Shown: positions 13,577 through 14,284 of the stretch, piece by piece
How positions within the stretch are numbered: the stretch's first letter is position 1
Layout of the letters: each line of letters begins with the position of its first letter
Source of the DNA: Clostridia bacterium
GTDB taxonomy: Bacteria > Bacillota_A > Clostridia > Oscillospirales > CAG-272
Direction: 5' to 3'
DNA length: 37,597 nucleotides
Assembly (NCBI GenBank): GCA_017632155.1
Contig: JAGBRZ010000168.1
Coordinates: 1-37,597 of the forward strand
Translations under genes and position numbers: made by a program
Notes under the pieces: model-generated
Told to the model about the DNA's origin: nothing
The model's database searches: none
The model's input: the letters and a program-made list of their open reading frames with translations, nothing else

Positions 13577-13616
13577 AAACTCGGATATTTTGAAGAACTT
13601 CAAGATATCCGAGTTT
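13577..13616. terminator. Bidirectional terminator at the end of the FAD gene
   Basis: An imperfect 18-bp hairpin, aaactcggatat... / ...atatccgagttt. Rightward it follows the FAD gene; leftward (minus strand) it ends with a long T-run and would stop the RNA begun at the promoter 13660-13688. Confidence 0.8.
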
Positions 13617-13653
13617 ATTTATGCGGCACTTAACATTAATTTACACAACGCCA
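13577..13653 (-). ncRNA. Candidate short RNA of about 75-80 nt
   Basis: A perfect extended sigma-A promoter at 13660-13688 fires leftward and only about 40 nt lies between its start point and the terminator stem. The transcript would hold an ATG-initiated 11-codon frame (MALCKLMLSAA) without a ribosome binding site, so it is more likely noncoding. No known family is recognised. Confidence 0.45.
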
Positions 13654-13659
13654 TTTACC

Positions 13660-13688
13660 ATTATATCACACACTTATCAAGATGTCAA
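13660..13688 (-). promoter_or_regulatory. Leftward consensus promoter
   Basis: On the minus strand: TTGACA (13683-13688), 17-nt spacer ending TGA (extended -10), TATAAT (13660-13665). It points away from the larger RNA at 13798. Confidence 0.75.
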
Positions 13689-13762
13689 GCACAAATTCGT
13701 CATAGTACCTAAATTCTGCGAATTATACAAAAAATAATTGTATACTTTGTGGAATTTGCATA

Positions 13763-13791
13763 TTGCAAAGCAGAAAAAGATGTGCTATAAT
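13763..13791 (+). promoter_or_regulatory. Promoter of the 430-nt RNA
   Basis: TTGCAA (13763-13768), 17-nt spacer ending TGC (extended -10), TATAAT (13786-13791). Confidence 0.7.
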
Positions 13792-13797
13792 ATAGTC

Positions 13798-14234
13798 ACA
13801 GGAAAGGAAGGTACGGGCCAATGTACAACTAAAGTACAGACTCACAAAGAATCCGCTTGAATAACTCGATGCTGTGGCGAAGGATCACGGGTCGAAAAGA
13901 CGCAGAGCCGGGAGGCTTAAATAAAGATCAAGCCCGCGTGTAAAGGACACGGAGTGAAGGATCAATTAATATAAATAAGGTTCAAGCAGAAACTTTGAAA
14001 AATTTGAGTCGCAGGAAAACCTTCGCCTTTATCCGAATCAAAGATGCGCAAAAAAGCATATGGGAATTCTCCTTAGAGAAAAAGTAATTAGATGCTTTTG
14101 AATGGCGTGATGTGAAGGAAAAGGTAGATGAAGAAAGAGAGGATATACAAATGATGTTAGATACCAAGATCGAACACAAATGACCCTTGACTGGCAGGTG
14201 TAAAGAAACCGCAGTCAAGGGTCATTTGTTTTTT
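13798..14234 (+). ncRNA. Structured RNA of about 430 nt, family not recognised
   Basis: The stretch has an extended -10 promoter just upstream and ends with an 18-bp hairpin plus six T residues. No rightward frame longer than a few tens of codons exists, and no ribosome-bound start is apparent. Local helices include tgtac/gtaca (13823-13839), ggctt/aagcc (13914-13934) and cgtgt-aaagg-acacg (13937-13951). The segment gtcgaaaagacgcagagccgggaggctta (in part 13891-13919) looks densely structured. It does not match what I know of tmRNA, RNase P, SRP or 6S RNA. It ends 74 nt upstream of fprA, which has its own promoter, so a cis-leader role is unlikely. Confidence 0.6.
14176..14234 (+). terminator. 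Very strong terminator of the 430-nt RNA
   Basis: A perfect 18-bp stem (14176-14193 with 14212-14229) encloses an 18-nt loop and is followed by a T-run to 14234. Confidence 0.9.
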
Positions 14235-14255
14235 GTTTTGGTAATACTTTTCCCC

Positions 14256-14284
14256 TTGACATGGGGCTTTTTTTGTGTTAAAAT
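14256..14284 (+). promoter_or_regulatory. Promoter of fprA
   Basis: TTGACA (14256-14261), 17-nt spacer, TAAAAT (14279-14284). The -35 box lies in the loop of a small cccc/gggg inverted repeat (14252-14266), a possible operator. Confidence 0.75.

Follow-up and report, generated by a model that had tools for sequence, protein, structure and literature searches.

The 37,597-nt stretch of Clostridia DNA analysed here (contig JAGBRZ010000168.1; hereafter the window) contains a member of a family of stand-alone structured RNAs that was apparently undescribed until now and whose members are apparently translated at both ends. The family is real, its anatomy is well supported, and it has so far been encountered only in Clostridia samples. 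A sequence-only reading of the window had pointed to this unit as a structured, stand-alone transcript of about 430 nt with a noncoding body. The unit itself was confirmed, with a promoter at 13763-13791, a body of about 430 nt and a terminator of -34 kcal/mol. The body, however, is not noncoding: conserved short ORFs with Shine-Dalgarno sequences lie at both of its ends. That reading had overlooked these ORFs and their Shine-Dalgarno sites, as well as a 12/12 promoter at 13688-13660 facing the opposite way. The elements in the window are:

13660..13688, minus strand: divergent sigma-70 promoter, TTGACA-17-TATAAT (12/12)
13689..13762, no strand: AT-rich control region between the promoters (consensus of 73 members aligned on the -10 box)
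13763..13791, plus strand: promoter of the RNA, TTGCAA-17-TATAAT with extended TG (score 10/12)
13800..13819, plus strand: extended Shine-Dalgarno region of the uORF (duplex with a generic 16S 3' tail, -15.5 kcal/mol)
13821..13832, plus strand: putative three-codon uORF, ATG TAC AAC TAA (MYN*), from reading the sequence
13839..13866, plus strand: helix P0, 5' strand (MFE fold; own-versus-swapped duplex test, 49 members)
13937..13951, plus strand: small hairpin CGTGT-AAAGG-ACACG, from reading the sequence
13980..14010, plus strand: helix P0, 3' strand (MFE fold; own-versus-swapped duplex test)
14025..14034, plus strand: helix P1, 5' strand (covariation, RNAalifold, MFE fold)
14052..14059, plus strand: helix P2, 5' strand, AAAAGCAT (covariation, MFE fold)
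14067..14080, plus strand: hairpin P3, TTCTC-CTTA-GAGAA (covariation, MFE fold)
14092..14099, plus strand: helix P2, 3' strand, ATGCTTTT (covariation, MFE fold)
14117..14125, plus strand: helix P1, 3' strand (covariation, RNAalifold, MFE fold)
14137..14142, plus strand: Shine-Dalgarno sequence of ORF2, GAGAGG (26 nt before the first ATG against the generic 16S tail, -12.5 kcal/mol)
14151..14183, plus strand: putative ORF2, MMLDTKIEHK*, or MLDTKIEHK* from the second ATG
14175..14239, plus strand: intrinsic terminator (-34.2 kcal/mol), the ORF2 stop codon near the base of its 5' arm
14256..14284, plus strand: promoter of fprA, TTGACA-17-TAAAAT

The transcription unit and its neighbours

The terminator consists of a hairpin (14175-14229), which was absent from the output of a simple terminator scan of the window, and a U-tract running to 14239. 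The RNA from 13802 to 14240 folds at -126.9 kcal/mol (z -5.85), and without the terminator (13798-14165) z is still -3.20; in neither case was any of 100 dinucleotide shuffles as good, which bears out the structure claimed earlier. In 73 of 78 members the 75 nt preceding the first uORF contain a promoter scoring at least 8/12.

The divergent promoter is also a family trait. On the minus strand the upstream 170 nt contain a promoter of at least 10/12 in 73 of 78 members, against 4 of 78 for the plus strand, and in 66 of the 73 its distance to the first uORF ATG is 155-167 nt. The control region between the two promoters has the conserved blocks AatTTCT.c.tTTTa.AcAAAAA..TtgT.aa.TTtt...AatTTgc. 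By eye, the divergent start region is often ATGTTGGG-like, and many members have a terminator-like hairpin within tens of bases of the divergent start (L088 has a gene start instead), implying that the predicted divergent transcript would be very short.

The gene downstream in the window, called fprA (a name that, like 'FAD-dependent gene', comes from reading and from the earlier note), has its own promoter at 14256-14284, as that note had claimed. An fprA-like frame also follows the RNA in sister genomes and at locus L025. Elsewhere the downstream frame varies by locus and may lie on either strand, according to a crude longest-ORF table. When ten downstream proteins were tested against Pfam, families were found in seven, of which six are antisense to the RNA (L014 pyrophosphatase, L015 SpoVT, L031 NUDIX, L035 and L042 HTH, L063 VanY) and one is sense (L036 PheS). 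A crude, partly annotated table of the flanks contained no recurring neighbour except fprA in close relatives and L025. At locus L053 two complete copies follow one another head to tail, and each has its own promoter, uORF and terminator. Since the next genes differ and are often antisense, and since copies can stand in tandem, the RNA is no simple leader of fprA; such a function is strongly argued against, and the earlier claim that the RNA is separate from fprA is upheld. It is accordingly very improbable that the RNA attenuates its downstream gene (fprA in the window) in cis, even though a three-codon uORF with a terminator is the plan of the vmlR and cplR leaders in the available parts of their descriptions (PMC9226507, PMC10201436) and fprA-like frames recur in the sister genomes and L025. 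The separate fprA promoter and the unrelated next genes of other members speak against it, and gene orientation, with Pfam-matched antisense genes at six loci, largely rules it out. As a side observation, L014 and L038, which hold different copies, both adjoin small opposite-strand genes that look pyrophosphatase-like by eye, with a Pfam match for L014 only.

Relatives and covarying helices

An exact 27-base piece was found in one contig, from a goat-cecum Clostridia MAG, where the upstream gene, the RNA and fprA match in the order of the window. Through a match of 40 bases, a shorter but recognisable copy was located before spoVAC in Vescimonas fastidiosa (Oscillospiraceae). A DNA search of the genus gave matches in 5 of 13 genomes. 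In the family-level sample a pattern of the 3' end matched 33 of 395 genomes (38 matches) and its reversed control none. In the order-level sample there were matches in 23 of 394 genomes, and the reversed pattern occurred in 5 genomes; here 15 were counted as real, from the loci read plus the known genomes G001 and G039. With a covariance model of the 3' end, at least 24 of 391 genomes of the class sample gave matches at E<=0.001, and 20 of these were judged real by reading the loci. In the phylum sample the one genome matched at E<=1e-6 was G001 itself (at least 1 of 378). Genome searches with model R1 scored about 10 candidates per genome, so that these counts are lower bounds, and with such limited first-pass scoring the phylum result is a hint, short of proof, that the family is confined to the class.

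A pattern of the 5' end matched 84 of 395 genomes of the family sample, some by chance, and gave 3 reversed-control matches (by reading). Among 30 loci from this pattern, 27 are members (19 by reading and 8 in already known genomes); L103 and L108 are non-members, and L114 is a match lacking the ATG. In all, 84 distinct copies from the family-, order- and class-level samples passed a script filter; that this equals the number of genomes matched by the 5' pattern is a coincidence. To pass, a copy needed the [TC]TAGAT core or either of two specified variants, a start codon in one of two places, a stop in the same frame and, beginning at that stop, a terminator arm; the core and the start, stop and terminator position of ORF2 are therefore partly built into the count of 84. 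It dropped at least two copies that had been seen, L083 (MTLDIKNEQK, by eye) and L111.

An origin in mobile elements was considered and rejected. The search of phages for the RNA gave no match, and two viral matches to the pattern resemble coding DNA and have no family terminator. In the plasmid collection the sole matching record was the Vescimonas chromid, and with L039 as query there was none. We also do not claim that the RNA is better conserved than its neighbours: at L001 the figure is 93.9% against 88.7% and 87.2%, but this excess is absent at L007-L009, where the RNA reaches 85.2, 82.2 and 81.5% and fprA 87.7, 90.1 and 82.9%.

P1, P2 and P3 are three nested helices directly upstream of ORF2, and they covary. 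Alignment A2, on which the structure was also drawn, comprises 38 of 65 members, picked by visible P1/P3 motifs; in it, 18 of 22 pairs show double changes, and 84.1% of cells are paired, against 77.8% after shuffling (none of 500 shuffles reached the real value) and no more than 53.5% with slid partners. These are the compensatory changes beyond controls that are generally expected of a structured RNA. Unprompted, RNAalifold recovered P1 but neither P2 nor P3, and the domain went unrecognised in many order-level members. Support for P0 is weaker. Its own strands pair at a mean of -25.0 kcal/mol, against -19.6 for swapped strands (Wilcoxon p 0.0007; 49 of 65 members); among the 48 ranks listed, 13 exceed 0.5, meaning that the swapped strands did at least equally well in over half of the swaps. 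The MFE fold of the window RNA contains P0, P1, P2 and P3 and leaves the ORF2 Shine-Dalgarno unpaired; in this fold 13807-13812, in the uORF Shine-Dalgarno region, is also predicted to pair with 14019-14024. We noticed in the sequence that the 5' arm of P3 could pair with the ORF2 Shine-Dalgarno.

Between genera, the central part of the RNA diverges strongly in both sequence and length. Inside the loop of P0, a motif ACACGRCGGTGTnACGY followed by an ATATAGA-like run occurs in L028, L031, L034, L038-L041, L073-L075, L082, L085 and others. Its R and Y positions appear to co-vary, which suggests a small covarying hairpin, and the hairpin at 13937..13951 may be the counterpart in the window of the ACGRCGGTGTnACGY motif in other members.

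We compared the RNA with known families. Against Rfam 15, neither the whole window nor L002 gave a family at the gathering cut-off. Around the RNA there were 18 matches at E<=10, all below gathering scores and all but one to miRNA or snoRNA families; in a scan of 20 member loci at E<=1, flanking tRNAs alone scored above the cut-offs. The part CGAAAAGACGCAGAGCC resembles the GEMM motif, and a c-di-GMP-I riboswitch was rejected when Rfam gave no support at E<=10. tmRNA is a stand-alone structured RNA of a few hundred nucleotides that encodes a peptide of about ten residues, and the RNA resembles it in these respects; unlike in tmRNA, ORF2 comes with a Shine-Dalgarno and a start codon of its own, and the Rfam covariance scan of the window gave neither a tRNA nor a tmRNA match. 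Dual-function sRNAs such as RNAIII and SgrS are structured regulatory RNAs that also encode a small peptide. By description the present RNA is set apart from them by its far shorter peptide, its additional three-codon uORFs and its other hosts. If the RNA were a diverged version of a known one (tmRNA, 6S, RNase P, SRP or a riboswitch) missed by Rfam, its comparable size and stand-alone design would fit, but with no family at gathering in the window or L002, and flanking tRNAs alone across the 20 loci, we regard this as highly unlikely. The literature searched, with preprints and most subscription papers outside its coverage, contained no prior description of the family, and term look-ups in the accessible text of two genome-wide ncRNA papers (PMC11109978, PMC8632094) gave none.

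The sequence-only reading thus fared well on these points. The conservation it had raised as a possibility is seen in 84 copies from family to class samples; the homologs with covarying helices that it had set as a test were found, with 18 of 22 P1-P3 pairs double-changed; and its inability to match the RNA to a known class agrees with the Rfam search it had asked for.

Reading frames at the two ends

Most of a generic 16S 3' tail can pair with the region before the uORF, 13800..13819; this tail sequence stands in for the members' own because a search for 16S in member genomes gave no match in 10 of 10 tried. A script found uORFs of two or three codons with a strong Shine-Dalgarno in 78 of 84 members, 88 on the sense strand (81 three-codon, 7 two-codon) and none on the opposite strand of these regions, at a threshold of -12.3, the value of the weakest member in the 16S-pairing set. 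The uORF peptides include MYN, MYK, MRK, MAK, MRI and others. Codon 2 is mainly Y, K, R or A and codon 3 mainly K, N or T, and both are highly variable, while start, stop and Shine-Dalgarno are kept. Most members (71 of 84) have a single site; the script detected two or three uORFs in tandem in 7, and more were seen by eye, e.g. in L117, L123, L126 and L132. The six members without a detected strong uORF are L029, L061, L062, L065, L066 and L068, of which L029 shows a short frame with a weaker leader and L061 a longer frame.

Duplexes between the 26 nt preceding the uORF ATG and the generic 16S tail average -17.1 kcal/mol (n=56 uORFs), compared with -9.3 for 35 long ORFs of the window at their best start, among which shadow frames are possible. 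Such extended pairing with 16S would account for the conserved GUCC adjoining the uORF ATG. This strength of binding, far above that of ordinary starts in the window, together with the tandem sites in 7 of 84 members and more by eye, could mean that the RNA sequesters ribosomes, its one to three sites complementary to the 16S tail capturing 30S subunits or initiation complexes in certain circumstances. We consider this improbable: with a single site in 71 of 84 members the stoichiometry demands very high expression, and the conserved ORF2 and P0 would be superfluous.

ORF2 apparently is coding, since it changes in a coding-like, frame-specific way. Among 55 distinct sequences, compared pairwise with kinship ignored, the fraction of one-base codon differences that are synonymous is 0.45 in frame and 0.23 and 0.12 in the shifted frames; an earlier run on 60 sequences gave 43% against 21 and 13%. 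The frame has nine codons in 79 of the 84 members, eight in 4 and seven in 1, and the commonest peptide, MLDIKSEQK, occurs in 26 copies. It begins mainly with xxG ATG or ATG ATG, the upstream codon (ATG or GTG) being the sole possible start in 6 of 84, and stops at the terminator base with TGA (68), TAA (12) or TAG (4). L111 has a frame-breaking difference, at which its near-identical copy L109 differs. The MLDIK start might mimic SerRS. Mimicry of the 16S 790 loop by TTAGATACC was rejected: relatives have TTAGATTTG or CTAGATTTC there with the peptide kept.

Two alternatives depend on how this frame is read. If the nonapeptide were the product of a small-peptide gene and the long 5' region a mere leader, frame-specific conservation of ORF2 would be expected. 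The structured leader, though, is many times the length of the ORF and has conserved elements of its own, and the crude, partly annotated flank table shows no recurring neighbour other than fprA (close relatives and L025); we hold this explanation to be improbable as well. Somewhat unlikely, yet deserving more weight, is that the RNA acts in trans through its structure and that translation of the end ORFs mainly stabilises it, a ribosome at the 5' end blocking 5' decay and the nonapeptide being inert. The stand-alone design, the covarying structure and the variability of uORF codons 2-3 beside a constant start, stop and Shine-Dalgarno are all in line with this. On the other hand, the frame-specific synonymous change in ORF2 exceeds what a mere ribosome pad would need.

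Translation-sensing leaders and a proposed function

Three-codon uORFs are known from leaders of ABCF resistance genes, for which we draw on the accessible parts of two papers. The uORF of B. subtilis vmlR encodes MIN; MDN and MDK work equally and MRK less, and lincomycin stalling on this uORF switches the leader (PMC9226507). In Clostridia, cplR has a three-codon uORF MR[I/M], ribosome stalling there is needed to induce the downstream ORF, and a terminator stem sequesters the main Shine-Dalgarno (PMC10201436). The uORFs of the present RNA (MYN, MYK, MRK, MAK, MRI) resemble both the vmlR variants and the cplR uORF. With the vmlR leader the RNA shares a three-codon uORF with its Shine-Dalgarno, a structured 5' region and a downstream intrinsic terminator; with the cplR leader it shares a three-codon uORF and occurrence in Clostridia. 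The differences are that vmlR and cplR leaders control an ABCF gene in cis, whereas the RNA has a nonapeptide ORF in place of a cis-controlled gene and its terminator sits after ORF2, and no counterpart of P0-P3 was seen in the accessible part of the vmlR paper (PMC9226507). Of the features tested for the vmlR/cplR type, the RNA has the three-codon uORF with a strong Shine-Dalgarno near the 5' end. A same-direction resistance gene downstream was not found (fprA-like in the window, unrelated genes elsewhere), nor was a terminator or Shine-Dalgarno-sequestering hairpin between uORF and main ORF. The 5' end is therefore like that of a uORF sensor, yet the RNA falls outside the vmlR/cplR class, two of the tested features being absent.

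From this anatomy we tentatively prefer, at a little below an even chance, the reading that the RNA is a stand-alone monitor of translation in which ribosomes on the uORF gate the nonapeptide ORF. A ribosome would load at the very strong 5' site and read the three-codon ORF, or two or three of them in some relatives. Because P0 begins 6 nt past the uORF stop codon in the window, the folding of P0, and then of P1-P3 beside the second Shine-Dalgarno, should depend on whether the uORF carries a ribosome stalled at its start, one that is completing it, or none. This refolding would gate translation of ORF2, whose stop codon lies inside the terminator, and the RNA or the ORF2 peptide would then act away from its own locus. 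The input could be ribosome stalling, e.g. by lincosamide or pleuromutilin-type inhibitors, and the output the peptide or the RNA. Counting against this sensor reading, the uORF-sensing RNAs of the two papers regulate in cis in the parts available (PMC9226507, PMC10201436) and the present RNA does not. Also against it are the 6 of 84 members without a detected strong uORF, the frame break in L111, the many order-level members with unrecognised P1-P3, and the 13 of 48 P0 ranks above 0.5.

A more inclusive proposal, possible but short of probable, is that the family forms an entirely new class, made up of stand-alone RNA genes of Clostridia that sense translation. Each would have one or several minimal ORFs, a core with covarying helices, a conserved nonapeptide and a conserved divergent promoter pair with a very short second transcript, and would act in trans on translation or the stress response. 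A conserved RNA absent from Rfam, present in many Clostridia, apparently translated at both ends and encoding a peptide of nine residues would broaden the notion of a gene. If its three-codon ORFs act as those of vmlR and cplR do, it would detect translation stress as a unit in its own right, instead of switching a single resistance gene. Vescimonas fastidiosa MM35 is a named relative in which this could be tested directly.

Small palindromes also flank the unit in the window. At 13577-13617 the stem AAACTCGGATAT...ATATCCGAGTTT, which gave sub-threshold miRNA matches in Rfam, lies between the upstream gene and the divergent promoter and probably serves as a terminator in both directions. After the terminator of the RNA, at 14252-14274, comes another small hairpin, CCCC-TTGACAT-GGGG followed by Ts, whose loop contains the fprA -35 box, and similar hairpins with altered stems precede fprA in L008 and L001.
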